Source of the DNA: Sulfitobacter alexandrii
GTDB taxonomy: Bacteria; Pseudomonadota; Alphaproteobacteria; Rhodobacterales; Rhodobacteraceae
Direction: 5' to 3'
Length of the DNA: 64,000 nucleotides
Assembly (NCBI RefSeq): GCF_001886735.1
Contig: NZ_CP018081.1
Location: forward strand, 186,001-250,000
The notes below the pieces were generated by a model. The model was not told the DNA's origin. It made no database searches and saw only the letters and a list, made by a program, of their open reading frames with translations. Below are positions 22,373 through 41,723 of this stretch, one piece after another (position 1 is the stretch's first letter; every line of letters starts with the position of its first letter). The translations under genes were made by a program, and so were the position numbers.

Positions 22373-22579
22373 CTATTCCTGCGGTTCCTTCGCGCTCGGC
22401 GGGAACATCACCAGCTCCTGGACCGCGACGGGGAAGTCGAGTTTGAGGCTGAAGAACTCCGAGCCGTCCCCGTTGCGAGTGTTGCGGAACATCGCGCCGA
22501 CGCGCTGGAAGCGGGTGCGCTCCTGACCTTCGTTGTCGGTGAACTTGACGGGAACGGTGGCGACGTAGTGGTTGGTCAT
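22373..22579 (-). CDS. small conserved plasmid protein
   Basis: The 68-residue protein starts MTNHYVATVPVKFTDNEG after GGAGAGACCCAA. Its middle, RTRFQRVGAMFRNT and FFSLKLDFPVAV, suggests a compact all-beta fold. I know no function. It is the gene nearest the candidate oriT in the leading direction. A decayed inverted copy, with its own copy of the leader, lies just to the right at 22769. Confidence 0.7.
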   Translation of the reverse strand: MTNHYVATVPVKFTDNEGQERTRFQRVGAMFRNTRNGDGSEFFSLKLDFPVAVQELVMFPPSAKEPQE

Positions 22580-22771
22580 TTGGGTCTCTCCTTTTTGCGA
22601 TGGGGATCACCCGGCACGGGGGGCAAGGGAGGTCCGCAAACACAAATGCGGAGGGTCCGCGCGCCCCGCGCGTGGAAACCGTATTTGTGTTTGCCGGAGC
22701 GTGAGCGGAGGGCACGGACCGCCCGACCCCGTGCGATCCACATCTATGAGCAAAGAGGGGAGACCCAAATG
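22569..22771. repeat. inverted duplication of a gene leader
   Basis: The leader of the 68-residue gene is present twice in opposite orientation. Outer arms: ATTTGGGTCTCTCCTTTTTGC from 22578 inward pairs with GCAAAGAGGGGAGACCCAAAT ending at 22770, with two mismatches (each quoted arm is described by its first 20 bases or so: ATTTGGGTCTCTCCTTTTTG and CAAAGAGGGGAGACCCAAAT). Inner arms GCAAACACAAATGCGG (22636-22651) and CCGTATTTGTGTTTGC (22679-22694) pair with one mismatch. The centre is near 22665. Confidence 0.65.
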
Positions 22772-22935
22772 TGCACCCCGCTCCTCAGCCGCCATCGGTC
22801 CTGTCGAGTTATGTCAGACGTGACCAGGTCCGCCCCCGCTTCCAACGCGTCGGCGCGATGGTTCGCGTGCGCCCGATCGGCACGACCGCGATCGTCTGCC
22901 TCAAGCTCGGCTTCCCCGTCGCCTGTGTGGCGATC
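22769..22935 (+). pseudogene. frameshifted inverted copy of the 68-residue gene
   Basis: After a copied ribosome site (GGGGAGACCCAAATG) the DNA aligns with the gene at 22373-22579. From the ATG to the shared GCGATG the intact gene has 90 bases and this copy 92, so the frame is lost. After the shift the frame reads RPRFQRVGAMVRV and CLKLGFPVA, matching RTRFQRVGAMFRN and SLKLDFPVA of the intact gene. The frame downstream of 22935 no longer matches and is probably not translated. Confidence 0.6.
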
Positions 22936-23306
22936 CGGGGCGGTGATACAGCCGCAGGTCTGGCAGCAGAGTTGTCGGCCCGGACGGGTCGCCGTCATCG
23001 GGCGGCGCGGTCGATGCGCTGCGCCCGCCCCAGCGATCTGCACCCGGACGGGCGGATCGCGGGGTTTCTGGCGCGCATGAGGGCAACCCCGCCGGCTGGC
23101 TCCGTCAGGAGACCGCCGCCGGGGTATGCCACTCAGCACGTCCAGGGGCCTCGTGTTCCGGGTGGAGGCCGGCACGGCCGGAACCTGCGAGCGCGGTGAC
23201 GGCGGTGCAACCGCCGGCAGGGGCCCGGCATGACCGACGATCGATCACCACCGACCTTCATGTTATTTGCGTCTGACTGAGGGGCCACAGACAGTTGAGG
23301 AGCGCA

Positions 23307-23340
23307 GCAGCCCCGCCCGGCCTTAGCCGGGCGGGGCTGC
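23307..23340. terminator. strong 15-bp hairpin in a gene-free stretch
   Basis: GCAGCCCCGCCCGGC (23307-23321) and GCCGGGCGGGGCTGC (23326-23340) pair perfectly around CTTA. It lies about 90 bases downstream of the minus-strand gene ending at 23431. There is no U-tract, so it may be a transcript-end stabiliser. The surrounding 22936-23430 holds no gene I can support. Confidence 0.45.
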
Positions 23341-23430
23341 ACTTATGGATGGTGTCGCAGTCGTCGAGAGCGTGGAAGGGTTAGAGAGAGGGATCACCGG
23401 GCGACGGGGCCGCCCGATGAAAGGTACTGT

Positions 23431-23676
23431 TCAGGCGAAGAGAGACTCGCTGAGGTGCGAACAATGCGCACAGGCCTCCCGCCAGTGGAAATTGACGCTC
23501 CCGCCATCGATAGTCTCCCAATCGGTCCGCAACGCGTCTTTCCCGCAGGCGACGCAGGGGACGACATGGCCGCCAATATCGTGATGGTCTTTCCCGGTGG
23601 AAGTTCCGCGCTGCGACGTGCCTGTGCGGTCGCAGTGTCGGCAAAGGTCGTCCTCGGTCTTGTTCTCGTCGGTCAT
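23431..23676 (-). CDS. small zinc-ribbon-like protein
   Basis: The start is ATG 23676 (MTDENKTEDDLC) after CTGGAGATGAGATC. The 81-residue protein has three CxxC pairs (CRHC, CVAC, CAHC) and several His residues (KDHHDIGGH), so one or two zinc sites are expected. Similar small zinc proteins are common in alphaproteobacterial plasmid accessory regions; no function is known to me. Its upstream region is repeat copy 1, the same sequence that precedes the DUF2493 gene. Confidence 0.65.
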   Translation of the reverse strand: MTDENKTEDDLCRHCDRTGTSQRGTSTGKDHHDIGGHVVPCVACGKDALRTDWETIDGGSVNFHWREACAHCSHLSESLFA

Positions 23677-23685: not shown

Positions 23686-24183
23686 TCCAGATGTTCGTGG
23701 ACCACCACGTGAGTGTGGTGGCATGGCCGAATGCCTGGTTGCCGAAACTGTCCGGGTCAGGGACGGCGCAGCCGCCGGCGTGCCGGGCGCAAAAGTTTTC
23801 CGGGCGCATCGCCCACCACGGGGGCGTCATCGAACACTGGACCGCCCTCTCCTCCCCGGCCCCCCTAGCCGAAAAGTTTTGCGATCCTTGACGCGGACGG
23901 GTTCGGGGGCCATCCGGAGGATATGCTTCCGCACTCATGTGTGTGTGATTAACGACAGGTTTGCCCGACGCGAGCAGGCAAAGGGTGCTGCCCGGACGCG
24001 GGACACGAATGGAGCGGCGGGATCGTTTTGCCCCGCAAAACAGACCGGAGCGTAATCCGGTGGAGCGGCCGGGGCGCGACGTGCTCGCGAGACGGGCAAA
24101 CCGGGACGCCGGGTGCTGCGCCGTGGTGAGGCCGCATGGCCGAATGCGCGATCGGCCTCAGGCCGATACCTCCACCGCGACTT
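23686..24183. repeat. ~500-bp direct repeat, copy 1
   Basis: From AGATGTTCG at 23689 to GCGATCGGCC near 24150-24160 the DNA aligns along its whole length with 25211-25690, with scattered substitutions and small indels. Shared landmarks include CCACCACGTGAGTGTGGTGG, CGGGCGCAAAAGTTTTCCGG, GAAAAGTTTTGCGATCCTTG and GTGCTCGCGAGACGGGCAAA. It ends a few bases before the ATG of the zinc-ribbon gene. No reading frame is convincing in both copies. It looks like a duplicated, structured regulatory region. Confidence 0.75.
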
Positions 24184-24268
24184 GGCTTACTGTGCGGAGG
24201 AGACCGCCAGTTTACGGGCAGGCAGATGAAAACGACGAAAGGGCCGCCCAAAGGCGACCCTCTCTCAT

Positions 24269-25198
24269 TCACGCGTCTGCCGTCTTCTTCGCCGGATCGG
24301 CGACCCGCATCACCGTCAGGCCTTTGGCTTCCGCCTTCTGCCCGAGGTTCAGTGCGACCCCGTTGCCGCCGAAGAGCACGACCCCGGTCGCGGCGAACTT
24401 GTCGTCCAGCATCTCGTCGTTGCATTTGAAGGGTGCTGCCCGCCCATGCGCGGACCAGCGCGGATCGAAGCGCGCCTGCGCGACGCCACGCGCCCGAGCC
24501 CACCGGGCGGCGATCATCTCGGCCCCGTGCTTGCCACCCTTGTGGCAGAGGAAGATCTCCTGGTTGCGGTTCTGCCGGATGCGCTCGCGAACCTTGTCGA
24601 GTGTCGTGAAGATGACGTCGATATCGGTCCAGTCGGTCGCCCCCGAGACGATCAGGGGAACCCCCTCGACCTTCGACTTCGCGGCTGTCTCGCGATCGTG
24701 CTGTTCCAGCAGCTGCCGGGCCTCGAAGACCGCTCCGGTCTCCTGAGCGCGAGCACTGGCGCGCGATCCCGCGGCCGGGATGAAGGCGTGGCCGGTCTCG
24801 ACCTCGTAGCATTCCGCCGCCGCCTCGCTCATCACCTCGATGGCCCCGACGATCTCGCGGACCTGCAGGAAGCGGGCCTGCGCCTCTTCGAGCGCGGTCT
24901 CGGCGATCTCCGACCCGTCATGGGATTTTGCCAGGGCGCCGATCTTGTCAGCGGTGCGGTCAAGCTCCTTGCCCAGAGCGATCTTGCGGCGCTGCAGAAT
25001 CGTGGCGAGCCCGTGCGCGAGCGGTTCGATCTCGGTCTCGAGACCGGTGCCGCGCAGCTGGCCAAGCAGGGCCTCGAAAGTCTCGCGGACGATGCTATCG
25101 GTCAGGACGTGATCCTCGGGGATGGGCAGCTCCGCGTCTTTCTCCGTCAGGCCGAAAAGTTCGATGGTCTCGTAGGCATTCGCGTTCTCGTATGTCAT
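24269..25198 (-). CDS. DUF2493 (SLOG-fold) protein
   Basis: The start is ATG 25198 (MTYENANAYETIELFGL) after GGAGACACCAAC. The N-terminal ~170 residues are helical. The last ~130 residues contain VPLIVSGATDWTDIDVIFTT, FLCHKGGKHGAEMIAARWA and VVLFGGNGVALNLGQKAEA, the DUF2493/YspA-like SLOG nucleotide-binding fold with its GG(K/R)-type loop. The family is widespread in rhodobacterial conjugative plasmids without a proven role. SLOG domains elsewhere sense or process nucleotide signals, so a link to defence or its inhibition is possible but unproven. Confidence 0.75.
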   Translation of the reverse strand: MTYENANAYETIELFGLTEKDAELPIPEDHVLTDSIVRETFEALLGQLRGTGLETEIEPLAHGLATILQRRKIALGKELDRTADKIGALAKSHDGSEIAETALEEAQARFLQVREIVGAIEVMSEAAAECYEVETGHAFIPAAGSRASARAQETGAVFEARQLLEQHDRETAAKSKVEGVPLIVSGATDWTDIDVIFTTLDKVRERIRQNRNQEIFLCHKGGKHGAEMIAARWARARGVAQARFDPRWSAHGRAAPFKCNDEMLDDKFAATGVVLFGGNGVALNLGQKAEAKGLTVMRVADPAKKTADA

Positions 25199-25207: not shown

Positions 25208-25705
25208 TCCAGATGTTCGGGGAACCACCACGTGAGTGTGGTGGCATGGCCGTACGTCTGGTTCACCGAATCTGTCCGGGTCAGGGACGGCGAAGCCGCC
25301 GGCGCGCCGGGCGCAAAAGTTTTCCGGGCGCATCGCTCACCACAGGCGCGTCATCGAGCACTGGACTGCCTTCTCCACACCCGCCGGCCTCGCCGAAAAG
25401 TTTTGCGATCCTTGAGGCGGGCTGATTCGGGGGCCATCCGGAGGATATGCTTCCACGCTCATGTGTGTGTGTTTTGACGGCAGGTTTGCCCGACGCGAGC
25501 AGGCAAACGGCGCGACCGGACGCGGGAGACGGATGGAGCGGCGGGATCGTTTTGGCCTCTGGCCGAAACAGACCAGAGTGCAATCCGGCGGAGTGGCCGG
25601 GGAGCGACGTGCTCGCGAGACGGGCAAACCGGGGGCCTGGGTGCAACGCCGCGGTGAGGCCGCATGGCCGAATGCGCGATCGGCCGACGGCCGATATCTC
25701 CCCTG
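25208..25705. repeat. ~500-bp direct repeat, copy 2
   Basis: This copy is in the same orientation as copy 1, about 1,522 bases away, and ends ten bases before the DUF2493 start codon. It keeps the same hairpins: CCACCAC/GTGGTGG near 25227-25246, and GGTTTGCCCG paired at distance with CGGGCAAACC. Both copies thus lie directly upstream of a minus-strand gene. Confidence 0.75.
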
Positions 25706-25825: not shown

Positions 25826-26101
25826 ATGAGCGTTCAAAAGCAATCCGTCAGCTTTACCGATACCGCCTACGCGTTCGCCAGGGAGCTGGTCGAAGCCGGA
25901 GAATATCCCAATGTGAGCGCGGCGGTTTCGGGGGAACTGGCGAAGGCCAAGGCAGAACGTGAGCGCGAACGGGCGGTGCTAGAAGCAGAACTTGAACGGC
26001 GTCTGGCTCTGCCGCTCGACCAATGGGAACCGGTCGGCGACGCCTCCGACGTCACCGCTGGCGCGCGGGCGCATCTGACCGCAATGACCCGCAAGGCCTG
26101 A
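25826..26101 (+). CDS. parD: ParD-family antitoxin
   Basis: The ATG at 25826 gives 91 residues. The N-terminus, SVSFTDTAYAFARELVEAG, with EYPNVSAAVSGELAKAKAE, is the ribbon-helix-helix DNA-binding part; the C-terminal charged helix would wrap the toxin. The stop shares a base with the toxin start (TGATG), the standard coupled arrangement. This pair runs opposite to all nearby genes. Confidence 0.82.
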   Translation: MSVQKQSVSFTDTAYAFARELVEAGEYPNVSAAVSGELAKAKAERERERAVLEAELERRLALPLDQWEPVGDASDVTAGARAHLTAMTRKA

Positions 26102-26436
26102 TGCAGTTCGTCCGGCATCCGTTCTTCGAGCGGGATCTCATCGGCATCGTCGATCACATCATCGAAGTCACCCAGGGCGACTCGGGAGCAGCTCTTCGGC
26201 GCCTGGATGAGGTCGATGCCTTGCTGCGATCCATTGCAGACAACCCGACATCTGGCGTGCGGCTTGAAGGAAAGCTCGAAGGCTGGCTCGTGCGACATGG
26301 CGGGTCCGGCCATCGTCTGACCATCGTCTTCAGGCCGGGTGTCGAGGCGGGTATCATCTACCTCACACTTGTTGCCTTTGGTGGACGGAACTGGATGAGG
26401 CTGGCGTCCACCCGGCACATGTTCCCGGATTTCTAG
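26101..26436 (+). CDS. parE: ParE/RelE-family toxin
   Basis: The 111-residue protein has the ParE/RelE fold pattern: MQFVRHPFFERDLIGIVDHI, then ALRRLDEVDALLRSIADNP, GVRLEGKLEGWLVRHGGSGHR and LTIVFRPG. ParE-type toxins poison gyrase; RelE types cut mRNA, and the sequence alone does not decide. With parD it forms an addiction module that would stabilise the element. Its 3' end overlaps the convergent radC-like gene by four bases. Confidence 0.82.
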   Translation: MQFVRHPFFERDLIGIVDHIIEVTQGDSGAALRRLDEVDALLRSIADNPTSGVRLEGKLEGWLVRHGGSGHRLTIVFRPGVEAGIIYLTLVAFGGRNWMRLASTRHMFPDF

Positions 26437-26939
26437 TCACCCATCATCCCGGCCGCCCGCATGCTGAACGCGTTCTTCTCCCGTCCGAAACCGACGATGA
26501 TGTGATCGTGGATGACAATCTCCATCACCTTGCAGGCTTCAACGATCTTCCGGGTGAGATCGATGTCGGCCTGGCTCGGATGCGGATCGCCGGACGGATG
26601 GTTGTGGCACATGATGATGGCTGAGGCATCAAGAACGAGAGCCGAGCGGAGCACCTCGCTGACATAGACCGGAACGTGATCGATGCTGCCGCGGGTCATG
26701 ACCCTGTCGCGGATCAGCTTGTTCTTCCGGTCCAACAGCAGCACCCGAAACACTTCGACGCGCTCGCGAACGGCGTTGAGCGCCAGGTAGTCGGTCAGCA
26801 TGGTCCAGGACTGCAAGGCGGCGGTGGACCGGGCATGCCTGCGCAGGATGTCCCGCGCGGCGTCGATGGTGGCGATCTCGGCCTCGGAGAAGCCGGACCC
26901 CGGACGTTCGACGATTTCTTGGGGGTCATGCACGGTCAT
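26433..26939 (-). CDS. radC: RadC/JAB-domain protein
   Basis: The start is ATG 26939 (MTVHDPQEIVERPGSGF), giving 168 residues. The MPN/JAB metal site is complete: the late HNHPSGDPHPSQAD (HxHPSGxxxPSxxD) and an upstream Glu in SEVLRSALVLDA. Chromosomal RadC has an N-terminal helix-hairpin-helix that is missing here, as in plasmid and phage YsaA/YkfG-like forms often found near anti-defence genes. Function is unknown despite the name. The ATG overlaps the stop of the PAPS-reductase-like gene. Confidence 0.85.
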   Translation of the reverse strand: MTVHDPQEIVERPGSGFSEAEIATIDAARDILRRHARSTAALQSWTMLTDYLALNAVRERVEVFRVLLLDRKNKLIRDRVMTRGSIDHVPVYVSEVLRSALVLDASAIIMCHNHPSGDPHPSQADIDLTRKIVEACKVMEIVIHDHIIVGFGREKNAFSMRAAGMMGD

Positions 26940-27688
26940 GCGGCATCCAATCGGTTGAGGGTTTCGCGGAGGTTCGTCCCGTCGGGACGCAGGGTGTGGC
27001 CGATCTCGTCTTCGAGAGCCATGTAGGCGGAAAGTAGGTCCGGTCGCAGCCGCGCCGCGCATCGCAGATCGGCCAGCGAGGACATGATGCAGAAGCTGCA
27101 GGACAGCCGCGTCATGCCGCGGCCATAGGCCCAATGTGGCTCCTGCCCCGCCGCGGCGATGGCGTCGAACACCTCGCGCCGGGATAGCTCATGAATTGGC
27201 AGCCAGTCGATCCAGGTTCGACCCGCCACGCTGTTGCGGTTGTTCAGCCTGACGACGTGACGGCTCCAACGCGCGGCGCTTTCCTCGGCGCGCATGCCCA
27301 TCGCACTGACGATGCGTCCGGCGAAGCGGGGATTGGCCGCGAGATAGCGACGCAACTCCCGCTCGATCGGGCCGCGCTTCTGGTCGGAGGTGCATTGGCG
27401 GTATCGCGGGGAGGGGAACATGCCCCGTGCCCGGACCATCTCGAAGAACGACCGGCGCGGTCGTGCGATCACCGGCGGCAGCCCGAACGTGGTCTTCCGG
27501 ATATGGCTGATCGTTCCCGGCCATTCCACGTCGCCGAGGGTGGCATGGACGATGAGCAGCTGGTCGCGCGGGATGCCAGCCTCAACCAGCCTGATCGACA
27601 TGGCCTGACTGTCCTTGCCGCCGGAATGGTTGATCGCCACAAGGGCGCCGCGCTCGATCAGGTCGGTGATGTCAGCCGGAATGCGCAT
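26936..27688 (-). CDS. PAPS-reductase-family (PP-loop) protein
   Basis: ATG 27688 (MRIPADITDLIERGALVAIN) gives 250 residues. The PP-loop SGGKDSQAM binds ATP pyrophosphate; QCTSDQKRGPIERELRRYL and GMRAEESAAR match the phosphoadenosine-phosphosulfate reductase family. A C-terminal CSFC pair may bind metal or a cluster. There is no sulfate-assimilation partner nearby. Related genes occur in phages, plasmids and DNA-phosphorothioation (dndC) loci, so a nucleic-acid or nucleotide sulfur role is possible. It is co-transcribed with radC and the gene before it. Confidence 0.78.
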   Translation of the reverse strand: MRIPADITDLIERGALVAINHSGGKDSQAMSIRLVEAGIPRDQLLIVHATLGDVEWPGTISHIRKTTFGLPPVIARPRRSFFEMVRARGMFPSPRYRQCTSDQKRGPIERELRRYLAANPRFAGRIVSAMGMRAEESAARWSRHVVRLNNRNSVAGRTWIDWLPIHELSRREVFDAIAAAGQEPHWAYGRGMTRLSCSFCIMSSLADLRCAARLRPDLLSAYMALEDEIGHTLRPDGTNLRETLNRLDAA

Positions 27689-28055
27689 CGGAACCTCCGA
27701 ACATGGCGGTCCAGTTGTTCCCGGCGGGTATCTCATCCCGGCGTTTCAGGACGGCGAGACGGTTCATCAGATCCATGATGACCGGCGTGGTCGGGTGATC
27801 CGCCCGATGGCCTCTCTGCGGCCGGGCGAGACTGGGATGTCCGTGTTTTAGGAGGTGAATCGCCGCCTCCAGCGATGGCATATGCGTCTCGCGGTTGGTG
27901 AGGTCGCGGGGCAATGCCGCCGCATGGGCGGCAAAGGCCCGGTTGCGCGCCGCACCGGGCCGGCGCCTGCCGATCCGGTGGGCCGCATCGACCCATTCGC
28001 CGACGTCGGACCAGGTAAGCCGCGTGCCGGGCGTCGTGTATTGATTATGTGTCAT
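27672..28055 (-). CDS. hypothetical protein before the PP-loop gene
   Basis: ATG 28055 gives 127 residues (MTHNQYTTPGTRLTWSDVGE). The protein is basic and His/Arg-rich, with helical segments (AAIHLLKHGHPSLARP, PVIMDLMNRLAVLKRRDEI) and no recognised motif. Its end overlaps the start of the PAPS-reductase-like gene by 17 bases, so they are coupled. I do not recognise a family. Confidence 0.6.
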   Translation of the reverse strand: MTHNQYTTPGTRLTWSDVGEWVDAAHRIGRRRPGAARNRAFAAHAAALPRDLTNRETHMPSLEAAIHLLKHGHPSLARPQRGHRADHPTTPVIMDLMNRLAVLKRRDEIPAGNNWTAMFGGSDAHSG

Positions 28056-28078
28056 GGGAAGCCCCTCATCCTTGCCGC

Positions 28079-28309
28079 TCAAATCAAGCCAGCGATGACG
28101 AGGCCGGATTTCATGGTGGGACGACCGCAGGCCTCGCAGAAGCCGGCGCGCTGATCCGGTTCGAGATCAGCGGTGTGATCGCAATTGGGCGCCATGCAGA
28201 TCGCGGGCACGATGCTGTCGAGCGCATAGTCCTCCAGGAAGTCCGCGACCTCGGCGTAACCTTCGGTCTCAGCGAGCGTGACCAGTTTGGGATGGGAGAG
28301 ATTGAACAT
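28079..28309 (-). CDS. small zinc-binding-like protein
   Basis: ATG 28309 (MFNLSHPKLVTLAETEGY) follows AGAAGGACGACAGCC. The 76-residue protein has a short helical part and a C-terminal CMAPNC...CEACGRP region with four Cys that could bind one zinc. Proteins of this form are common in plasmid accessory regions; the function is unknown. Confidence 0.65.
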   Translation of the reverse strand: MFNLSHPKLVTLAETEGYAEVADFLEDYALDSIVPAICMAPNCDHTADLEPDQRAGFCEACGRPTMKSGLVIAGLI

Positions 28310-28526: not shown

Positions 28527-29255
28527 TCAGCCCACCAAAGCGAGGCCGGTGTTGTCAGACCGCTCCTGGCCGGCGCTCTCGACGAAGGGAATGATCGAGA
28601 AGGTCTGGCCGCCCCGCTGCTCCTCGTTCTGAACAGCGTTCACCCGCAGATCGCCATCGGGCGTGTTGATGAGGAGCGAGACGTAGTCGTTGCCGGTCCG
28701 GTTGCTCTTCGCCATCCAGGCCGAGCCCACGCGGATCGGGTGGCCCTTGGGCGAGCTGACCTCGATGCGGTAGTCGGGATGGGTCTCCTCGGTCTTGAAC
28801 GCGTTCTCGACGAGGATGAAATCGAGGTCGAACATCATGTTGGCGATGTAACCGGCGAAGGCGTTGTCGGCATCCATTGCGGTCAACTCGCCCGAGATCG
28901 AGCCGGACTTCATGGCACCGTTCGACACCAGCGGGATGATCTCGAATTCACCGGTCATCGCTTCGCGCGCTTCCTTCGTCTGCACGGCGTTGACCCGAAA
29001 CGGCCCGAGGCCGACATCGATCTGCATCGAGATGTAGGGATTGCCGGTGGTATTGCCGGTCTCGTTCCAGGCCGTGCCGATGCGCACCTTGCGGCCGGAT
29101 TTGTTCACCGCGGTCACGTCATAGTCCGGGCTCCGCTCGGACATCTTCGTCCGGGTTTCGAGTTGGATGGCAACATCGAACCGGGTCGAATGGATTATGC
29201 CGGAATAGGCGGTGGCTGCGGTCTCGGCGTTTTTCGTCAGGGTTCCTGCGAACAT
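28527..29255 (-). CDS. tandem DUF736 protein
   Basis: ATG 29255 (MFAGTLTKNAETAATAY) follows CAAGGAGAAGACCC. The 242-residue protein carries two DUF736-like units. The first holds SPDYDVTAVNKSGRKVRIG, then AWNETGNTTGNPYISMQIDV; the second holds HPDYRIEVSSPKGHPIRVG, then AWMAKSNRTGNDYVSLLINT. Each unit ends with a RVNAVQ segment. Single-unit DUF736 proteins are common on rhizobial and rhodobacterial plasmids; the fused form is less usual. No biochemical role is established. Confidence 0.8.
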   Translation of the reverse strand: MFAGTLTKNAETAATAYSGIIHSTRFDVAIQLETRTKMSERSPDYDVTAVNKSGRKVRIGTAWNETGNTTGNPYISMQIDVGLGPFRVNAVQTKEAREAMTGEFEIIPLVSNGAMKSGSISGELTAMDADNAFAGYIANMMFDLDFILVENAFKTEETHPDYRIEVSSPKGHPIRVGSAWMAKSNRTGNDYVSLLINTPDGDLRVNAVQNEEQRGGQTFSIIPFVESAGQERSDNTGLALVG

Positions 29256-29336
29256 GGGTCTTCTCCTTGGGTTTGCCGCTGCCCGGCTTTTTGCCAGAGC
29301 ACGCGGGATTGCTTTTCGACCCCTCATGGGATCGCA

Positions 29337-29360: not shown

Positions 29361-29371
29361 TCTCCTGACCG

Positions 29372-30010: not shown

Positions 30011-30012
30011 GA

Positions 30013-33900: not shown

Positions 33901-35222
33901 TCGTTCGCCATGAGGATGGTCTCGAGCTGGGCCTCGGAGAGATGGCCCTCCTCGATCAGACGGCCGGGCAGGCGCAGATCAGCGGCGGCTTCGCCGTTGG
34001 GTGCCGGAGGGGCAACCGAGGCCATGGCTATACTCTCGACCAGGGGGGTCGGATGTTCCCGGGCACCCTCAATCTCGATCCGCTGCGGACGATAGCGGGC
34101 ATAGATGTCGGAGACGGGCGTGTTCTCGCGGGGGGTGTCGAGGCAGGTGAAGGCCAGCGGGATGGCGGCATGCGATTTGGGTTTGGCAGACGCCGCTTGG
34201 GCGATTGGGCGCTGACGTGCAACAGGGACACCGACCCGGCGCGACCCAGTCCGAAACTGCGCACCGGTTTGGATCGAGGGAGTGGCAGTGCGGGTTGCGG
34301 CGATATCATCGATGATTTGGCGCGCCGCGTCCAGATCGTCGACCATGGCGCGGACGATCTCGATCTCCTCCTGCACCTTGTCGAAGACCATGAGCTGGGT
34401 TTCGACGGTGGTGCCGAGTTTGCGGTAAACGTGGCCCGGAATAGTGAGCGCGAGACGGGGCTTTGCGATGGCCGAGGCCCGTGCCCAATGGGCCGCGTCT
34501 CGTTTTGGCGAAAATCCCATCGGCATGATCGCCGCGAGACGTCCGCCGGGTGCCAGCCGTTTGGCAGCGCCGATCAGATGTTTCGCCGCAATGTGCTTGT
34601 CGCGCGACCGATCGACCGATGAGGCGAAGGGCGGATTCATCACGATGACACCGGGAAGCTCGGGCACCGTCAGGAGATCATCAATATGTTCGGCGTCAAA
34701 GCCGGACACCTCGCCCCCGAACACCGCCTCGAGAAGCGCCCGACGGAAGGGATCGATCTCGTTCAGCATCGGTTTGCCACCCGCGCAAACTGCAAAACCA
34801 GCCAGCGCGCCGGTCCCGGCGGAAGGTTCGAGGACGGTTTCGCCGGGGCGGATGGCGGCAGCACGGATAGCCAGCGCCGCATAGGGCAGCGGCGTCGAGA
34901 ATTGCTGGAGCCGGATTTGCTCTTCGGAGCGCCGGGTCTCCGTCAGGAGCCGTGAGGCGAGCAATCTGGCCGTCGCGAGCGCGTCCGAACCGCTGTCCCG
35001 CATGATCGCCGTCACCGTGGCGGCCTGCATCAGGTCATAGGCCATGCGCCACGACCACGCGCCGCCGGCATCGCTACCGCCGAAACTCTCGCGCATGATC
35101 CGAGCGAGCGATGAGCTCTTGAGCGGTTGCTTCTCAATCTCGCTGCCGATCAGGCGAATGGCCTGCAGAAGCTGTGGTTTCGATGGGAAATCGCGTGCGA
35201 GTGCCGGGCTTCGGTTGTCCAT
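30963..35222 (-). CDS. giant N6-adenine methyltransferase / strawberry-notch helicase fusion
   Basis: The 1419-residue protein has two enzymatic halves. Residues ~100-300 are a gamma-type N6-adenine methyltransferase: motif I EPSAGTGALAGF at ~132 and catalytic NPPF at 196-199. Residues ~415-1380 are the strawberry-notch SF2 helicase: Walker A GDGTGCGKG at 479-487, DEAH box FDEAHAMQN near 587, and motif VI-like GLGRTHRSAQ. Such proteins are frequent on alphaproteobacterial conjugative plasmids and resemble phage P1 DarB, which protects incoming DNA from restriction. A role in protecting or processing transferred DNA is inferred. GGACAGACGAT precedes the ATG. Confidence 0.88.
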   Translation of the reverse strand: MDNRSPALARDFPSKPQLLQAIRLIGSEIEKQPLKSSSLARIMRESFGGSDAGGAWSWRMAYDLMQAATVTAIMRDSGSDALATARLLASRLLTETRRSEEQIRLQQFSTPLPYAALAIRAAAIRPGETVLEPSAGTGALAGFAVCAGGKPMLNEIDPFRRALLEAVFGGEVSGFDAEHIDDLLTVPELPGVIVMNPPFASSVDRSRDKHIAAKHLIGAAKRLAPGGRLAAIMPMGFSPKRDAAHWARASAIAKPRLALTIPGHVYRKLGTTVETQLMVFDKVQEEIEIVRAMVDDLDAARQIIDDIAATRTATPSIQTGAQFRTGSRRVGVPVARQRPIAQAASAKPKSHAAIPLAFTCLDTPRENTPVSDIYARYRPQRIEIEGAREHPTPLVESIAMASVAPPAPNGEAAADLRLPGRLIEEGHLSEAQLETILMANDAHARDLPGRFTIDQDQTRMTRADDDPEACAYRLGYFLGDGTGCGKGRECAGLILVNWLAGRRKAVWISKSTTLIEDAIRDWTDLGGSPADIQPLSKWKPDQPIPMGDGILFVTYATLRSAGKCGRTRLSQVLDWMGDGFDGVLAFDEAHAMQNAAGSDEGRGVKPSQQGLAGLRLQLAAPRARVFYVSATGATSVQNLAYASRLGLWGQGPEYPFPSRESFVSAMEAGGVAAMEVVARDLKTLGFYTARVLSFDGVEYDVLEHALTPAQIEIYDAYAGAFRTIHHNLEAALTATGVNDASGQTNASAAKASAKSRFESTKQRFFNHLLMGMKAPTVIRAIEEDVADGYACVIQVVSTGESLLKRRLEAMDPEDELVEGALTPRDYVLSYLEQAFPIHAQKLVEIDGNMVAEPLRDANGALVVSREAEALRDAAMMELMALAPIPAALDQILWAFGDEAVAEVTGRSIRSLKSSDGALFIEKRSANSNSSETRAFMDGEKDILIFSDAGGTGRSYHAAKTAKNQKRRRHYLLEPGWRADAAIQGLGRTHRSAQVSAPFFRVCTSDVHGEKRFTSTIARRLDQLGALTKGQRETGSQGMFREEDNLESPIARGALRGYYADLAAGRAGAMSYEKFCDWTALRLIDQDGVLLEELPPIQRFLNRVLALPIHMQNALFAEFMSRIADQTERARAAGTLDLGVETLRGERIEQVSTEDLWTCPRSRAVTRIIGLEVTDPVHILSAEEVLDRNPDRLPMINRASGRAAFISARPMQMYDEEIVTLMRKVTRPSGSTYVEEGKFQASAWEEIEPSEFRRLWDEEADSLPKVTTTKLYLLTGLLLPIWKDIPSGNERIYRVTPEGQGSMIGRTVSEDGAAALRARFMVGTPKTPQEMLTAALGSTAPVDLGRGLTLTRRRVAGAARLEIDGADRGTIDGLKAMGCFTEIIAFQLRVFVPHGEGVDTAAILARIVGEGSPTAADRAA

Positions 35223-35266
35223 ATCGTCTGTCCTTTGAGTCAGGTTGTGGGTCCGACAGGACAGAA

Positions 35267-35302
35267 AGCCGCCTCAGCGCTTTCAAACGCGCGGAGGCGG
35301 CT
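35267..35302 (-). terminator. terminator after the DUF6927 gene
   Basis: AGCCGCCTC (35267-35275) pairs with GAGGCGGCT (35294-35302). On the minus strand it follows the DUF6927 stop and ends in TTTCTGTCC. It lies within the leader of the large helicase gene. Confidence 0.55.
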
Positions 35303-35334
35303 CAAGGCTGAACAGATAGCGATGTTGCCGGCGG

Positions 35335-35991
35335 TCAGGAATCGTTCCCGGCGAAAAACTCGGCCAGAACCGGACTCGCCTCACTCTTCGCCGAGCCGAG
35401 GAGCTCGGACCCGGCGAGCGAGGCTTTCGACAGGCGCACGAGGCCGCCTGTCTCCTCGATGCGGTAGCAGCGACGCTTTTGCCCTCCGCGCCGGTAATGG
35501 GTGGCGGTCACGATCTGGCAGGTGCTGCCATCGGTCAGCGTTACCGGTGCGGCCAGTTTGATCTTGTCACCCTCGTCGTAGTCCGGGATCGCCGCCCAGT
35601 CGCGGCAGCGCTGACGCCAGGCATGGGCATAGCTGTCGGGATCCTTCAACTCGGAGAGCAATGCCAGAAGGCTGAGCGGCGCGCGCGACTCCACGGGCCC
35701 GGCGCTCTCCTCCATGTCCTTGTAGCCCCAGCAGCCCTCGTCATAGCGGGTGAGGAACACGGCGCCGAAGGTGATCGACCCGTCGGCATCGGTCACGTAG
35801 GTTCTGTCTTCAACCGGCGCGCCATCGATGTTGGTGAGCCTCAAAGCTGCATACCAGGTCGACCCGAGTTTGGAGGCCTTGAGCAGCACTGTCTTGCGCG
35901 TATCCGTTTCGAACGTGCAAAGCCGGGCGATTTCTGCCTTCTCGTCCGCGTAGGTTTTGACGCGGCGGTCGGTGTAGAAGAGCCAACCCAC
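35335..35991 (-). CDS. DUF6927-like protein
   Basis: GTG 35991 gives 218 residues beginning MGWLFYTDRRVKTYADEKAE, the conserved opening of DUF6927 proteins. Middle motifs ITFGAVFLTRYDEGCWGYKD and AHAWRQRCRDW are also typical; the last third (KLAAPVTLTDGSTCQIVT) looks like a small beta domain. The function is unknown. It shares one base with the stop of the gene before it. Confidence 0.7.
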   Translation of the reverse strand: MGWLFYTDRRVKTYADEKAEIARLCTFETDTRKTVLLKASKLGSTWYAALRLTNIDGAPVEDRTYVTDADGSITFGAVFLTRYDEGCWGYKDMEESAGPVESRAPLSLLALLSELKDPDSYAHAWRQRCRDWAAIPDYDEGDKIKLAAPVTLTDGSTCQIVTATHYRRGGQKRRCYRIEETGGLVRLSKASLAGSELLGSAKSEASPVLAEFFAGNDS

Positions 35992-36584
35992 TATGCCGCC
36001 CTCCGGTCATCGATTTCGATGAGCGCATCGAGCGGCACGCGGTAAGGCAGCATCTCGTCGAAATCCTCGCAATTGCCGCTATTCTGCACGAGGGCGTGGG
36101 TGTCGGTGGCGTCCTTCAGGATCACCCGGAACGTCCCGCCGAGACCGGAGGGCACGTCGTAGGTCCCGCCGATCAGATAGTCGGCGGCGCGACGCAGGAA
36201 GACGCGGATCGTGTGGCCATCGGTCGCCAGCCGAATCGTGTCATGACCACGGTCGATGAGCATTTGCACATCATCGAGAATGTCGGTGTAGAACTGGCCG
36301 GTCAGATCGCGGAACGCCGCCTGCCGCGCCGCCATCCAGCCCGGATCGCGGAACGGGTTGATGCCCTCGGCGAAGGCATGGGTGGGATCGGCGCGTTCGG
36401 TGGTGACGATCCGCGTCGTCGTGCCATCGATGCCGTTCGAGCGCAGATGGACGCCATTGCCGACGATCAGGATCAGGGCGGGTTTGCCCACCGGCCCGTT
36501 CCAGTTGGGAAGGAAGGTGGAGCAGCCGCGCGCATGCGCGATCTGCGCCGCGACGCTCGCCGCGGTGAAGCTAAGAAGTGCCAT
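35991..36584 (-). CDS. hypothetical protein coupled to DUF6927
   Basis: ATG 36584 (MALLSFTAASVAAQIAHA) gives 197 residues; an earlier in-frame start would overlap the leader. There is no signal peptide despite a moderately hydrophobic start. The segments ALILIVGNGVHLRSNG and DTIRLATDGHTIRVFLRRAA suggest an alpha/beta fold. I do not recognise a family. It is transcribed with the DUF6927 gene. Confidence 0.6.
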   Translation of the reverse strand: MALLSFTAASVAAQIAHARGCSTFLPNWNGPVGKPALILIVGNGVHLRSNGIDGTTTRIVTTERADPTHAFAEGINPFRDPGWMAARQAAFRDLTGQFYTDILDDVQMLIDRGHDTIRLATDGHTIRVFLRRAADYLIGGTYDVPSGLGGTFRVILKDATDTHALVQNSGNCEDFDEMLPYRVPLDALIEIDDRRAA

Positions 36585-36654
36585 GGGTTTTACCTGTAAG
36601 ATGGAGGGAGGGGTGCGACCCGCGCCTACGTTTCGGAGCGGGCCGCCTGTAGGG

Positions 36655-38613
36655 TCAGGCCGCTTCTGCGACTTCGGTTTCGTCTTCGGGTTTCTCGGCT
36701 GGCTCGACACCTGCCGTCTGCATCATCGGCGGGCACCAGGCCGCGACCGCCGCCCGCTGTGCATCCGTCAGCGTGGCGAAGGGCTCGGCGAAGAGCTTGT
36801 CGCAGAATTCGACGACTTGCTTCTTGGTCGAGGAGGCCAATGTCACCGCCTCCTGCGCGAGCCCCAGTTCCTCACCGAGGATCTTCAGAAGCCAGGCCTT
36901 CTTGAAGCGATTGAAGAGCGCCGCATTCGGTGTCCAATGCGCTCGGATGTCCGACATGATCTCGACTTCGAAGTCATGCATCAAGCTATCCCGCTGCCGG
37001 TCCCGTGAGAAGCAGGATTGTGTGGTTGCCGCCGTGGCATAGGCCACGAGTTTGGCCTTCTCGCCCGCATCGAGCGCCCGGAAGAGCGCGAACTGGTCTG
37101 CAGGGGATTTCGCGTCATCGGCCCAGGAGAGGTCGAGTGCGTCATGGGCCTCGGCCACCTGTTCAAGCGAGGTGCCGTCGATCTCGTCCATCTTGGCGTG
37201 GGTACGATACTCCTGGCGCGCATCGACCTTGATCGCTTGGGTGACGCCCAAACCGCTGGTCAGCACATCCGTGACCAATTTGAAGAGCGTGAGGTCGAGC
37301 GTCGCCTCTGGATGCATCGCCATGGCCGCGCCGAGCGCCATCGCCCGCTCGGTCTTCAGGTCCTCGGTGAGCGAGGCGGGATAGGTGATCTGATCGCCGT
37401 CTACGGCGCCCCTGTCGCTCGGTGCGCCGGTGCCTTTGCCAGACCGCTCCGCCTTGTCTTCAGGGCGCACCATCCCGACATGCAGGGAGATCTTGCCATG
37501 CGACCAGGAGGCGATCACGCCGGAGCGCGAAAGATCCTCGGTGCCATAGGCCTCCTGTAGGTCCCGCGCCTCAGCTTCCAGCGCGTCCACGCGTTCGTAG
37601 AGTTCATTGTACGCCTCTTCCTCGAGCTCTTCGTTCTCCATCTCGTGTTCGAGTTTCTCGAGTTCGGCGGCAATCTCATCGACACGCTTCTGGCCCTTCT
37701 CATCGGGCTCGACTGGACCCGGATAGACACGGCCATAGTCCGCCATGGCGGCATAGTCGTACTGGATGACCGCATCGGCCCAGGCAAAGCCGATCTCTGC
37801 CCGCGCCTCTTCGGCGGCGGCGGCGAGTTTTTCGAGCAGGATCGTTTCGACCAGCGCGGAATCCTCCAGCACGGAATGCTCGTCCAGGAGATCGGCCGCG
37901 ATGGCGCCGCCACGCGCCTCGTAGTCCTTCCGCACGAAGGCGCCGATATCGTCGCTGACCTGCACACCGCGGGACTTCAGCGCGTTGCGGACGGTATGGG
38001 CCTGGACATAGTTGTCCTCCCTGGTGAGCGCCTCGAAGACCTCGCGTTGCACCTCCTGGCTCGGGTGATCGGCGAAGGCTTTCATCGTGTCGAGGGTGAT
38101 CGATTTGGCGCGGGCCGCGGCACGGATGTCGGGATGGATGAGCCCGTAGCGCAGCCTGCCTTTGACGGCGGCGACGGTTGTGCCGAAGGTCTTGGCAATC
38201 GTCTCGGGAGTCTGGCCGTCGACCTCCATCATCCGCGCGAAGGCCTCGAACTCGTCGATGGCGTTCATCGGCGCCTGGGTGATGTTCTCGGCGAGCGACA
38301 GCGCGGTGGTCACATCGCAATCGTCAGGGACCAAACGGCAGTCGATCTTGGTGCGGTTCGTGAACCCTTTGGCGGTTTTGTCGGCGACCAGCTCCAGAAG
38401 CGCCGCATGGCGCCGGCCACCGGCGAGCACCCCGAACTTGCCACCGATCTTCTGAACGAGCAGCGGCTGAAGAAGGCCCAGAACGGCGATGCTGGCCTTG
38501 AGATGCGCGATATTCTCCGAGGCATAGGTCTCGGGGGAATTGGTCCGTACGTTCGCGGGATGCGGGCAGAGGTCGCCGATGGCGACGGTGGTAGTTTTGA
38601 ATGTGTGAGTCAT
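36655..38613 (-). CDS. ParB/Srx-domain protein, plasmid leading-region type
   Basis: ATG 38613 (MTHTFKTTTVAIGDLCPH) follows GAAGGACATGTC. Residues ~8-110 form the ParB N-terminal domain with GVLAGGRRHAAL and LSLAENITQAPMNAIDEF; a helix-turn-helix follows (ETIAKTFGTTVAAVKGRLRY). The remaining ~430 residues are acidic and helical, with a coiled coil near 330-375. Long ParB-like proteins without a ParA partner are typical of plasmid accessory regions and need not act in partition. The leader is long (about 180 bases to the repeated motif) and contains a hairpin. Confidence 0.82.
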   Translation of the reverse strand: MTHTFKTTTVAIGDLCPHPANVRTNSPETYASENIAHLKASIAVLGLLQPLLVQKIGGKFGVLAGGRRHAALLELVADKTAKGFTNRTKIDCRLVPDDCDVTTALSLAENITQAPMNAIDEFEAFARMMEVDGQTPETIAKTFGTTVAAVKGRLRYGLIHPDIRAAARAKSITLDTMKAFADHPSQEVQREVFEALTREDNYVQAHTVRNALKSRGVQVSDDIGAFVRKDYEARGGAIAADLLDEHSVLEDSALVETILLEKLAAAAEEARAEIGFAWADAVIQYDYAAMADYGRVYPGPVEPDEKGQKRVDEIAAELEKLEHEMENEELEEEAYNELYERVDALEAEARDLQEAYGTEDLSRSGVIASWSHGKISLHVGMVRPEDKAERSGKGTGAPSDRGAVDGDQITYPASLTEDLKTERAMALGAAMAMHPEATLDLTLFKLVTDVLTSGLGVTQAIKVDARQEYRTHAKMDEIDGTSLEQVAEAHDALDLSWADDAKSPADQFALFRALDAGEKAKLVAYATAATTQSCFSRDRQRDSLMHDFEVEIMSDIRAHWTPNAALFNRFKKAWLLKILGEELGLAQEAVTLASSTKKQVVEFCDKLFAEPFATLTDAQRAAVAAWCPPMMQTAGVEPAEKPEDETEVAEAA

Positions 38614-38694
38614 GACATGTCCTTCTCGACGTGTTTGAGAGGGCCGCGCGGGTCTTCGCGCAACCAATCCCCGGATCCGGGAACCAACAGGACA

Positions 38695-39077: not shown

Positions 39078-40109
39078 TCAGGCTATTGCGCCGGAGCTCT
39101 GCGTGTAGCGAAACGGCGTTCCGTCGATCCACATGCGGTGCAATACAACTCCAATTCGTCGAGCGAGAGCAATCAGGGCTCTCTTCGATCCGCGCCTGTG
39201 TGCCACTCTACGTCCCCAGGCCTGGAGCCAGTTCGGAGCGCCTCGATGCATCAGGATCATCGCCGCCTGATACAGAGCCGTGCGTAGGCCGCGATCGCCG
39301 GTTTTGGTGATCTGTCCGACGATATCCATTTCCCCCGATTGAGTGCGCCTCGGCGTCAAACCCGCCCACGGACCGACGTCTTTCGATCGCGCGAAGCGGG
39401 TCGGGTCATCGATCGCGGATCTTACGGTCAGAGCAACGATTGGGCCGACACCCGGCATCGTCGTCATCAGGCGGCATACATCGTCGTGCTTTGCCAACCC
39501 AGTGATCATCGTGTCCAACGCCGCCAGCTCGGCCCGCAATTGCTCCCGTGCACGCAGAAGCGTCGACGCCGAGGCGGACAGGATTTTGTTCTCGGCAACC
39601 AGTTCTCTCACCCGGTCATCGTATCTGATTCGGGTGACGTGTCCGAGCTTCAGGCCAAAGTTCCTGAGAACACCTCTCATTGAGAGTTCGATGTTGATGA
39701 TCGCCTGCTGAAGAGACTTTCGCGCCGTCAGCAGAGCGCGGATTTCCTGGGAGGACACAGATTTGCGGTGCACCGGCCGGTACCAACCCATTTGCAATAA
39801 TCGAGCAATCCCCTGGGCATCGCGCCTGTCGGTCTTGATCGGCATTGCTTTCAAGGCGGCTTTTACCAACCGCGTTTCCATCAGGATCACGTCAAATCCG
39901 GCGTCTTCGATCCCTTTGCTCAGCCATTGGGAAAGCGGTCCGGCTTCAAGCCCGATGGCATCAATCGTGTACGGCAGCGAGCCGATTGCAAGCACCAAGG
40001 CTTCAGGCTCGCTGGCCGCTTGGAATTCTTTAACAACTTTACCCTGCGGTCCCAGCACACAAATCGCAGTGCTTGCCAGTGAAACGTCCAATCCGATAAA
40101 TACATTCAT
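39078..40109 (-). CDS. IS110-family DEDD transposase
   Basis: The 343-residue length fits the family. The N-terminal RuvC-like DEDD domain begins MNVFIGLDVSLASTAICVLG, with further acidic residues in AIGLEAGPLSQWL and KTDRRDAQGIARLL. The C-terminal transposase_20 domain has MTTMPGVGPIVALTVRSAI and VGPWAGLTPRRTQSG with the catalytic Ser in the RTQSG region. The frame looks intact, so the element may be active. Confidence 0.93.
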   Translation of the reverse strand: MNVFIGLDVSLASTAICVLGPQGKVVKEFQAASEPEALVLAIGSLPYTIDAIGLEAGPLSQWLSKGIEDAGFDVILMETRLVKAALKAMPIKTDRRDAQGIARLLQMGWYRPVHRKSVSSQEIRALLTARKSLQQAIINIELSMRGVLRNFGLKLGHVTRIRYDDRVRELVAENKILSASASTLLRAREQLRAELAALDTMITGLAKHDDVCRLMTTMPGVGPIVALTVRSAIDDPTRFARSKDVGPWAGLTPRRTQSGEMDIVGQITKTGDRGLRTALYQAAMILMHRGAPNWLQAWGRRVAHRRGSKRALIALARRIGVVLHRMWIDGTPFRYTQSSGAIA

Positions 40110-40319
40110 GTCGTTGCCCTTCTATTCTCAGGAATTGAGGCGCATGGAGACATACGACCTCGTAGACGCGCTGCAGGCGCATCAAGGGCAACGGCACTTC
40201 AAGTCATCCTGACAGACAAGCGAAACGTGTTCGATTCGCCGACAGCCCCATTACGGCATCTTTCCCTTTCGGAGGGTCAGCGGGCCTGTCGGTGATGGAA
40301 GGTTGGGGTGCGGCCCGCC

Positions 40320-40709
40320 CTACCAGTCGCGCGCCATCATGACGGTCAGCACGCGCATGGTCGTCTCGGGATTGTCGGGTGCCTCGGCGCCATAGCGGAA
40401 GTCAGAGCTGGCCTCGTAGTGATCCAGCTTCCAGAATACGGTTTCGCCCCGGATCGTCACGGCCCCGAAGTCGTGCCAGCCTTCCGGATCATTGTCCGGC
40501 TCGAATGTATCGAACGCACCGGTGGCCTGGACGGCCTCTGTGACGAAGCCATCGCCTGCCTCGATCAGGGACTGGGTCACGACGAGGCGGCCCTGGATCT
40601 GCTGATCCGGGGTGATGCCAAGGCAGGCAAACCTGCGGAAAGCGTCGTTCTGGGATGCGATGACAGCCGCGTTCGGACGCGAATAGTCTGCGGGTTCAGG
40701 ATGGCTCAT
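40320..40709 (-). CDS. DUF3768-family protein
   Basis: ATG 40709 (MSHPEPADYSRPNAAVIA) follows GAAAGGACAGACCC. The 129-residue protein has the DUF3768 pattern: ASQNDAFRRFACLGITPDQQ, then GRLVVTQSLIEAGDGFV and FDTFEPDNDPEGWHDFGAV. The family is found mainly on alphaproteobacterial plasmids next to ArdC and DUF736 genes. No activity is known. Motif instance 3 lies 34 bases upstream. Confidence 0.75.
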   Translation of the reverse strand: MSHPEPADYSRPNAAVIASQNDAFRRFACLGITPDQQIQGRLVVTQSLIEAGDGFVTEAVQATGAFDTFEPDNDPEGWHDFGAVTIRGETVFWKLDHYEASSDFRYGAEAPDNPETTMRVLTVMMARDW

Positions 40710-40742
40710 GGGTCTGTCCTTTCGGGATGGGTTGAAACCACC

Positions 40743-40767
40743 AAACCCAAAGCCAGTTTTTCCTTTC
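40743..40767 (-). promoter_or_regulatory. repeated leader motif, instance 3
   Basis: Minus strand: GAAAGGAAAAACTGGCTTTG then GGTTT, 34 bases before the DUF3768 start codon and 33 bases after the ArdC stop. Confidence 0.45.
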
Positions 40768-40799
40768 ACCACGCCCTACCAGCCCGGACAGCCCCGGCC

Positions 40800-41723
40800 T
40801 CAAGCGGCCTGTTCCCCCTGCCCCGCCTCCGACGCGGCGACGAGATAGTCACAGGCACGCTGCGCGTCCGCCGCATGTTTGAAGATCGCCCGCTTGTCAG
40901 ACCGGAGCACGCGGACCCAGTTGTCGAGATAGGCCGCGTTCAGCTCCAGCGTATGCGCGGAGAACCCCAGCTTCTGACCCAAGAACACCGTGCAGAGCTC
41001 GGCCACAATCTCTTCCCGTGCGTAGGCGGTGTTGCCGAACCGCGCATCGCCATAGCTGCGGTTTAACCGATGCCGGGGTTTCGTCCAGTGGCCCAGCTCA
41101 TGACCCCAGACGGCGTAGAAATTCCGCGGGTTCTCGAAGAGCTCGATCGGGGGCATGTAAATCTTGTCGAGATTCGGGACGTAACATGCTTCCCGACCAG
41201 AGAAGCTGACATTGGCACCGATTGCCTCGAAGAAGCTCTGCATATGCGGGATCGGTGCGCGTTCGGGATGAACTTCCGGTTCGGCCGCAGCGGGATGGAA
41301 GCGAGGGTCCAACCCCTCGATCTGATCGGCGTTGAAGACGCGGTAGGATTTCATGAAGGGGATGGTTTTGGGATCTTCGGTTTCCGCCTGGTCGCCGTGG
41401 GCGCTTTCGGCCTGCTCGCGCTCGGCCGTCCCGTAGTAGACGACCACCGACGATTTCGAGCCCTTGATGACTTTCGCATCGAGCTCGTTCGCCTGCCTCA
41501 ACGTCATCCAGTAAGGCGAGGCGTATCCGGCCATCATGGTGCGCATAGTCAACAGGAAGTTATTGACGCCCTGGTAGGGTTCGCCGTTCAGGCGGAGCGG
41601 CACGGAACTGCCGCCGACCGTCCATGGCTTGCGCCAGGGCAGCACGCCCCGGTCAATGATGTCGATGAGTTCGTTGGTGATCGACGCTGCAGCGTCGAAC
41701 TTGCGTTTGCTAGACTTGGACAT
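40800..41723 (-). CDS. ardC: ArdC-family antirestriction protein
   Basis: The 307-residue protein has the two ArdC parts. The N-terminal ssDNA-binding domain (residues ~10-135) contains GVLPWRKPW, YQGVNNFLLTM and KGSKSSVVVYYG. The C-terminal zincin-like domain has HELGHW at 208-213 and a downstream Glu in YAREEIVAELC. ArdC of pSa protects incoming single-stranded DNA from restriction. Its place far from the tra genes but on the leading side of oriT fits early expression in recipients. Confidence 0.9.
   Translation of the reverse strand: MSKSSKRKFDAAASITNELIDIIDRGVLPWRKPWTVGGSSVPLRLNGEPYQGVNNFLLTMRTMMAGYASPYWMTLRQANELDAKVIKGSKSSVVVYYGTAEREQAESAHGDQAETEDPKTIPFMKSYRVFNADQIEGLDPRFHPAAAEPEVHPERAPIPHMQSFFEAIGANVSFSGREACYVPNLDKIYMPPIELFENPRNFYAVWGHELGHWTKPRHRLNRSYGDARFGNTAYAREEIVAELCTVFLGQKLGFSAHTLELNAAYLDNWVRVLRSDKRAIFKHAADAQRACDYLVAASEAGQGEQAA

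Follow-up and report, generated by a model that had tools for sequence, protein, structure and literature searches.

Conserved transferred-strand hairpins in a Rhodobacterales leading region as candidate counterparts of the F plasmid Frpo sites

Gene expression before the DNA has become double-stranded is documented, in the portions of the literature available to us, for the F-like and ColIb-P9 plasmids of enterobacteria. In the F plasmid the Frpo sequence acts both as a promoter and as a second-strand priming site, according to the available portions of PMC9849209 and PMC11541004. The two copies, Frpo1 and Frpo2 (also termed ssi), are non-coding, lie in the leading region directly before leading genes and form a stem-loop in the transferred strand (T-strand), as the accessible part of PMC9849209 describes them; as far as the accessible part of PMC11541004 goes, that work searched for Frpo by BLAST with five known sequences and looked for further candidates among its Figure 2 islands. 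Here we describe a 64-kb stretch of Sulfitobacter alexandrii DNA (the window; contig NZ_CP018081.1, positions 186,001 to 250,000), taken from contig C6 of a genome of 4.69 Mb. The original prediction saw in positions 22373-41723 of the window (the block) a possible conjugative leading region with an anti-defence gene set, transcribed toward the origin of transfer (oriT). The best explanation of our results is that the block is the leading (establishment) region of a Rhodobacterales conjugative plasmid of the MOBP/MPF_T type, and its most informative feature is a set of hairpins on the + strand, unseen in that prediction, which resemble Frpo in position and form.

Polarity of the block relative to oriT

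Gene order was compared in 86 loci gathered via g68, the first gene after oriT: the best 80 of 202 g68-encoding loci of other genomes, five plasmids and the window, near-identical plasmids included. The accessory gene mobC lies 3' of g68, on the same strand and 504-590 bp apart, in 82 of 87 loci, a count that takes in the window and a second copy of it. Among the 86 loci, the strand of g68 is shared by the relaxase (82/82), mobC (81/81), the SLOG gene (78/78), DUF736 (53/53), DUF6915 (38/38), DUF6878 (37/37), the gene for a 92-aa protein (44/45) and strawberry notch (42/43), and parD (14/14) and parE (13/13) always occupy the opposite strand. The core genes thus keep a constant strand and position with respect to oriT, apart from a single deviating locus for each of two genes. 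Gene calls between 22373 and 41723, whose limits were in part borrowed from annotated relatives, give 19 genes on the minus strand and two, parD and parE, on the plus strand together with a decayed inverted copy of g68, which confirms the near-uniform orientation originally noticed.

Adjoining mobC is the block CCCCCTATTTCCTG/CCACCTTC (the slash marks the predicted nick), which is near-invariant among 75 distinct sequences of 82. At nic sites of the VirD2/RP4 type the + strand is, we take it, cut after CCTG, and the 3' part, here the block, enters first; the transferred strand would then be the template of the block genes. By analogy with those sites, we infer that the relaxase nicks the + strand at 21832/21833. 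The likeness to VirD2/RP4-type (MOBP) origins lies in the PF03432 relaxase and in the TATTTCCTG/CC block beside the accessory gene; the differences are that TATTTCCTG stands here in place of TATCCTG, which we take to be the consensus, and that the large inverted repeat of this oriT is on the leading side of the predicted nick. The only E. coli-type promoter match in 21800-26500, at 21857-21884, falls inside oriT and faces mobC and the relaxase gene.

A MobA/VirD2-type relaxase beside oriT is accompanied by a type IV secretion gene set, as in a MOBP leading region: a VirB10-family gene lies ~8 kb from the relaxase on the same contig, and a Sagittula plasmid that is 99.9% identical to segment 21790-23300 is typed as conjugative, MOBP and MPF_T. 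Some match to the block was found in 232 plasmid records. In the window's own genome (G000), VirB10-family genes number four, and C6 bears another strong match to a relaxase (C6 276688 and 288893, C3 36064, C5 41036). The nic block, the linkage to mobC and the gene strands together support well the predicted leading region, its polarity and its use of the T-strand as template; the T-strand-biased folding described below adds support independent of the nick assumption.

Three loci (L040, L057 and L066) carry g68 and the hairpin el2 beside a protein only ~30% identical to the window relaxase, on the same strand. With a loose nic pattern, the T-strand shows TATCCTGC 535 nt from g68 in L066 (weaker matches lie farther off) and at 1116 nt in L057, whereas L040 has no more than TGATCCTGT; by eye, the element el1 is retained in L040 and L066 and absent from L057. 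Two other loci are without mobC: L074, which is cut by a contig end and has the nic block, and L060. An exchange of modules at the el1/oriT boundary in H135 and H136 was considered and rejected, as both have the same oriT block.

Hairpin elements of the transferred strand

The + strand (T-strand) carries three conserved structured elements, el1, el2 and el3, the last in two copies (Table 1). Self-comparison of the window reveals a large inverted repeat spanning g68, and the + strand of 22373-22980 folds at z -15.1 against shuffles; in relatives at ~75% identity the repeat is held only to ~22800, that is, over the inner 200 nt that constitute el2. The outer arm of el2 is the mirror image of the g68 ribosome site and start. 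Its plus-strand arm was tried as a divergent gene and rejected, as the frames, in those loci that do offer a ribosome site and start, range from 5 to 143 aa and are unconserved, and many loci offer none. The two el3 copies sit within a ~550-bp duplicate, upstream of g82 and of the SLOG gene. In profile searches el2 was found on the T-strand in 83 of the 86 loci, always before g68, and el3 gave 86 T-strand hits spread over 76 loci, of which 76 precede the SLOG gene and 10 precede g82; the profiles were built mainly from such positions, so these counts measure constancy and are not an unbiased survey. Like Frpo, el2 and el3 are therefore non-coding elements of the leading region that stand just before leading genes. 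We found no further copies of el2 in the window's own genome, where it occurs once.

To compare strands, folding was scored as composition-controlled z-scores, calculated with DNA parameters against dinucleotide shuffles for 14 sequences sampled per element. The T-strand folds better than its complement in 14 of 14 sequences for el1 (mean z -7.0 versus -2.8), in 14 of 14 for el2 (-8.3 versus -5.3) and in 13 of 14 for el3 (-3.1 versus -1.2). This amounts to 41 of 42 sampled sequences, as compared to 12 of 29 controls, which comprise the oriT repeat (-2.8 versus -2.6; T-strand better in 8 of 14) and 15 windows from other parts of the block (-0.4 versus -1.0; 4 of 15). The strand bias says that a + strand nucleic acid is the folded molecule. 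It also bears on the idea that the elements work as duplex DNA, in the form of palindromic binding sites or cruciforms through which these genes are controlled in established cells: long palindromes do occur here at promoter positions, and a site of this kind, the oriT repeat, shows conservation too, but no strand preference would be expected of duplex sites, as the oriT repeat illustrates, so that we regard this explanation as very improbable.

Covariation agrees with the predicted stem-loops of the transferred strand. Two-sided pair changes affect 16 of 71 pairs in el1, 9 of 74 in el2 and 13 of 91 in el3. In 300 shuffles, which take no account of relatedness, such a level came up once for el1 and never for el2 or el3; sliding one side by 1-3 columns leaves fewer two-sided changed pairs, and for the oriT repeat 53 of 300 shuffles attain its value. 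Alignment A2 has 41 rows, L049, L079 and L085 being omitted from the 44 non-redundant loci because the element is rearranged or deleted in them, and alignment A3 consists of 26 of these rows.

Likeness to Frpo and competing readings

Frpo-like single-strand start sites in Rhodobacterales are the best reading of el2 and el3, and one that we hold to be probable, if by no great measure. In this mechanism the relaxase would nick the + strand at the predicted site, and this strand would enter the recipient with the block first. On the entering single strand el2, el3a and el3b would fold into long imperfect hairpins at which RNA polymerase would start on the single-stranded DNA, so that the earliest transcripts of g68, g82 and the SLOG gene would appear while the second strand is still missing. 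Priming of second-strand synthesis may also fall to these hairpins or to el1, and the whole device would work like Frpo of the F plasmid. What the sequences show is where the elements lie, that they are conserved and covary, that they fold more stably on the T-strand, that polarity is fixed within the main family, and the duplication; the nick, the binding of RNA polymerase, expression in recipient cells and the roles of g68 and the remaining genes are inferred.

The comparison with F was made directly. Its leading region contains a 548-bp duplicate of 90% identity that stands before ssb and before a second gene group, and Frpo1 and Frpo2 were assigned from this duplicate and from the position before ssb. 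Both fold slightly better on the T-strand than on the complement (Frpo2, z -5.5 versus -4.9; Frpo1, -5.6 versus -4.7). Like el3, they are duplicated within one leading region and have a toxin-antitoxin pair close by. Within the 64-kb window the word CGCAAAANTTTT has four occurrences, against an expected 0.02, and these fall exactly one to each arm of the two el3 copies; across 18 kb of F it has two, against an expected 0.01, one per Frpo. The longest word common to el3 and Frpo1 is the 12-mer AAAAGTTTTGCG, located on the same strand and in the same arm, at the apical end of the stem, where both share AAAANTTTTGCG; only 1 of 400 el3 shuffles reaches a length of 12. The elements differ from Frpo in that there is no overall sequence homology, that the -35 and -10 boxes which Frpo-type promoters rebuild in the stem were not recognized with the E. 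coli consensus, that the plasmid is a MOBP plasmid of an alphaproteobacterial host rather than a MOBF plasmid, and that el2 is more stable (z -10.1). We found no homology to known Frpo sequences beyond the 12-mer and short words, and for this reason the elements are not filed as Frpo homologues but only as sequences that would work alike.

A related possibility is that the hairpins are single-strand initiation sites (ssi/sso type) that prime second-strand synthesis and are not promoters. Structure near oriT is biased to the T-strand, el1 is structured though it does not stand directly before a gene start, and no sigma-70 boxes were found with the E. coli consensus. However, priming does not require the placement directly before gene starts that el2 and el3 show in 83 and 76 of 86 loci, and Frpo itself does both, in the available portions of PMC9849209 and PMC11541004. 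We consider priming alone unlikely, although it is the foremost of the alternatives.

Several observations weigh against single-strand start sites. The T-strand bias alone fails to separate DNA from a + strand RNA, which would give an identical bias. The structures could act as RNA, either as long 5' leaders of the g68, g82 and SLOG mRNAs that hide the ribosome site (el2 does pair the g68 ribosome site with its mirror) or as an antisense RNA from the + strand. Leaders are disfavored by the weaker folding of the sense strand in 41 of 42 samples; an E. coli-type scan found no + strand promoter in 21800-26500, and Rfam gave nothing above its cut-off, only two chance-level matches far below it and neither within an element. 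We consider an RNA role distinctly unlikely. With regard to start sites on single-stranded DNA, the first consensus fold of the el2 sense strand (RNAalifold) has two-sided changes in only 3 of 43 pairs. A strand-symmetric count of G-T to A-C mismatches favors the T-strand but weakly (el2, 18:11; el1, 27:16; el3, 27:17; distant set, 8:5), as compared to 9:11 for the oriT repeat and 1:4 for the g68 stem-loop, whose expected place of action is minus-strand RNA; because this count is weak we rely on the z-scores. A strong asymmetry of 250:20 was set aside, as that fold had been chosen with G-T pairs allowed. The hairpins contain no sigma-70-like match, the scan being one for the E. coli consensus that does not cover other promoter types. 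The shared 12-mer was spotted by eye before it was tested and is only a lead, and el1 and el2 have only words of 7-9 nt in common with Frpo. Among 488 windows of 200 nt, the lowest z (-5.5) belongs to 57401-57600, which lies outside the block, and three el1 windows come next; the F leading region likewise has windows with lower z than those over Frpo (best, -8.4 at 15201; Frpo2, -4.7). Stability alone is thus not diagnostic, and the argument is carried by position, conservation and strand bias. Finally, the loci were gathered via g68, so that linkage to it and its high identity are in part selected.

The distribution of el2 adds two further difficulties. Its covariance model matches 24 of 198 genomes sampled from the family, 67 of 390 from the order and 2 of 385 from the class, the latter two belonging to the family of the window; each of these counts includes the window's own genome, and some matches are distant or without g68. 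A Nitratireductor locus (L016) carries el2, and two Dinoroseobacter shibae plasmids of 191 kb and 126 kb match 94% of the oriT-to-el2 segment at ~76% identity. The el3 core pattern occurs in 20 of the 198 family genomes, all within the 24 that have an el2 match, and a reversed control pattern occurs in none. Distant el2 copies precede either a DUF736 gene or a gene whose product is ~50-56% identical to g68 and as much as 69% identical to other members. The first difficulty is that, for 14 distant copies on contigs with a PF03432 relaxase (a count that leaves out several weak matches), the gene is on the relaxase strand in eight and on the opposite strand in six (G425a, G276a, G345, G222, G256, whose strand is that of the model, and G048a). 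Five of these six lie 17-31 kb from the relaxase, and G276a, G425a and G345 adjoin a DUF3768 gene; copies in G163 and G492, on contigs without a relaxase, are outside the count. The second is that hairpins without g68 have the apical module of el2.

These g68-less hairpins were seen in other Rhodobacterales (L105 6438-6546, L107 5841-5917, L117-L122 and L124-L126). They possess the apical internal-loop module of el2, and their outer stems vary strongly yet remain complementary; several are on contigs of >0.5 Mb, and the two that were checked sit between convergent genes. IS110-like transposase genes lie ~300 nt or less from truncated el2 in L104 (6507-7732) and L128 (3532-4885), and by eye one is also near a truncated el2 in L085, as if an IS110-like element targets the hairpins.

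Gene content and wider reading

Table 1. Features of the oriT side and of the block (window coordinates)
Feature	Coordinates	Strand
Relaxase, MobA/VirD2-type (PF03432, by Pfam)	18900..21227	-
mobC, helix-turn-helix accessory protein (our name)	21214..21807	-
nic block CCCCCCTATTTCCTG/CCACCTTC, near-invariant; predicted nick 21832/21833	21818..21840	+
oriT inverted repeat, arms 21841-21853 and 21911-21923	21841..21923	.
el1, conserved T-strand structure with covariation, between oriT and the stem-loop after g68	22005..22225	+
Conserved terminator-like stem-loop after g68; not in terminator scan output	22338..22358	-
g68, 68-aa protein, first gene after oriT	22373..22579	-
el2, T-strand hairpin before g68, core 22604-22739	22575..22774	+
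Decayed inverted g68 copy, present in 19/86 loci (window included)	22825..22922 (about)	+
g82, 81-aa protein	23431..23676	-
el3a, T-strand hairpin before g82	23702..23950	+
Terminator-like site after SLOG gene	24237..24264	-
SLOG (YAcAr, DUF2493) protein	24269..25198	-
el3b, T-strand hairpin before SLOG gene	25223..25475	+
parD-parE toxin-antitoxin pair	25826..26436	+
Variable slot in the window: RadC, PP-loop protein, 127-aa and 76-aa proteins	26433..28309	-
DUF736, 92-aa protein (29372-29650), DUF5983, DUF6915, DUF6878	28527..30838	-
Strawberry notch protein, DUF6927, regulator, ParB-like	30963..38667	-
IS110 transposase, insertion	39078..40109	-
DUF3768 protein and ArdC	40320..41723	-

In 12 loci with <90% DNA identity, g68 retains a mean identity of 94% at residues, as compared to 72% at fourfold sites, a sequence pattern which indicates that it is selected as a protein. 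Profile comparison with DUF736 gave a probability of 3.9% (E 0.011), and a Foldseek search with a structural model (mean predicted local distance difference test score 80) returned a best E of only 0.26, so that a single-stranded DNA-binding protein or other known fold was not recognized. The stem-loop after g68 and the terminator-like site after the SLOG gene make the transcription units nearest oriT look short. A 24-nt motif occurs four times upstream of minus-strand block genes (29339-29362, 30942-30965, 38795-38818 and 40745-40768), the copies being 71-88% alike around AAAGCC and TTTTCCTTTC, and is possibly a shared regulatory site.

Pfam matches above cut-off in the block are ArdcN and MPTase-PolyVal (both of ArdC), YAcAr SLOG, RadC, the PAPS reductase PP-loop and ParB HTH domains, together with DUF736, DUF5983, DUF6915, DUF6878, DUF6927 and DUF3768; ParB_N is just under the cut-off and DUF3085 far under it. 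The protein first described as DarB-like is named strawberry notch in annotated relatives. The IS110 transposase, one of the 19 minus-strand genes, was not named in the original prediction and is absent between ParB and DUF3768 in Mameliella L004.

The block resembles the leading-region anti-defence islands described in the available part of PMC11541004 in having ArdC, a ParB-like protein, a methyltransferase/helicase-type protein and a toxin-antitoxin pair, with genes oriented so that the T-strand is their template; it differs in that its core genes are mostly DUFs with no assigned role and in its internal slot, which in relatives holds defence-system proteins. The predicted anti-defence gene set stands in part: ArdC is retained from its domains, its function being assigned by family only, and the ParB-like protein by analogy with that of the F leading region (27% identity), whereas the proposal that the small proteins are anti-defence factors gained nothing, since Pfam, PHROGs and NCBIfam gave no such link for them.

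The slot between the SLOG gene and DUF736 (26433-28526 in the window) measures 1.4-11.7 kb in 53 loci and contains 219 mechanically called frames of at least 120 aa in mixed orientation (129:90). Their proteins form 85 clusters, with 73 representatives of at least 160 aa, of which 64 were scanned with PADLOC. Among the matches listed, which cover 25 of 195 matching families, are models of type IIG and other restriction-modification systems, Lamassu (LmuB), CBASS (cyclase and capP), pAgo, Thoeris (ThsB1), IetS and a DruM-type methylase; L008 (23895-26025), L037, L070 and L086 are examples of relatives with such proteins. The PP-loop protein in the window's slot resembles BrxP and SspD. Because the slot holds defence-system proteins in several relatives, this part of the leading region looks like a probable defence hotspot.

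A wider picture may be drawn, which as a whole we offer tentatively and think somewhat doubtful. Start sites on single-stranded DNA would be a general device of conjugative plasmids, of which Rhodobacterales plasmids would have two unrelated kinds, el2 and el3, together with a third T-strand structure, el1; RNA polymerase would read the apical element shared by el3 and Frpo, the apical module of el2 would be a signal that also exists outside plasmids, and the recipient would make the strongly conserved g68 ahead of any other protein, as one of the main factors of establishment. Our literature search found no single-strand promoter described for alphaproteobacterial leading regions in the portions of the sources available, and relaxase, oriT and similar terms were not found in the accessible text of PMC5513947. 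Conjugation of Dinoroseobacter shibae into Phaeobacter has been published (PMC4886583, in the part available), and since the 191-kb and 126-kb plasmids of this species match, the reading is directly testable there. If true, it would make transcription from the single strand a general stage of conjugation, extending it to another bacterial class and another relaxase type.

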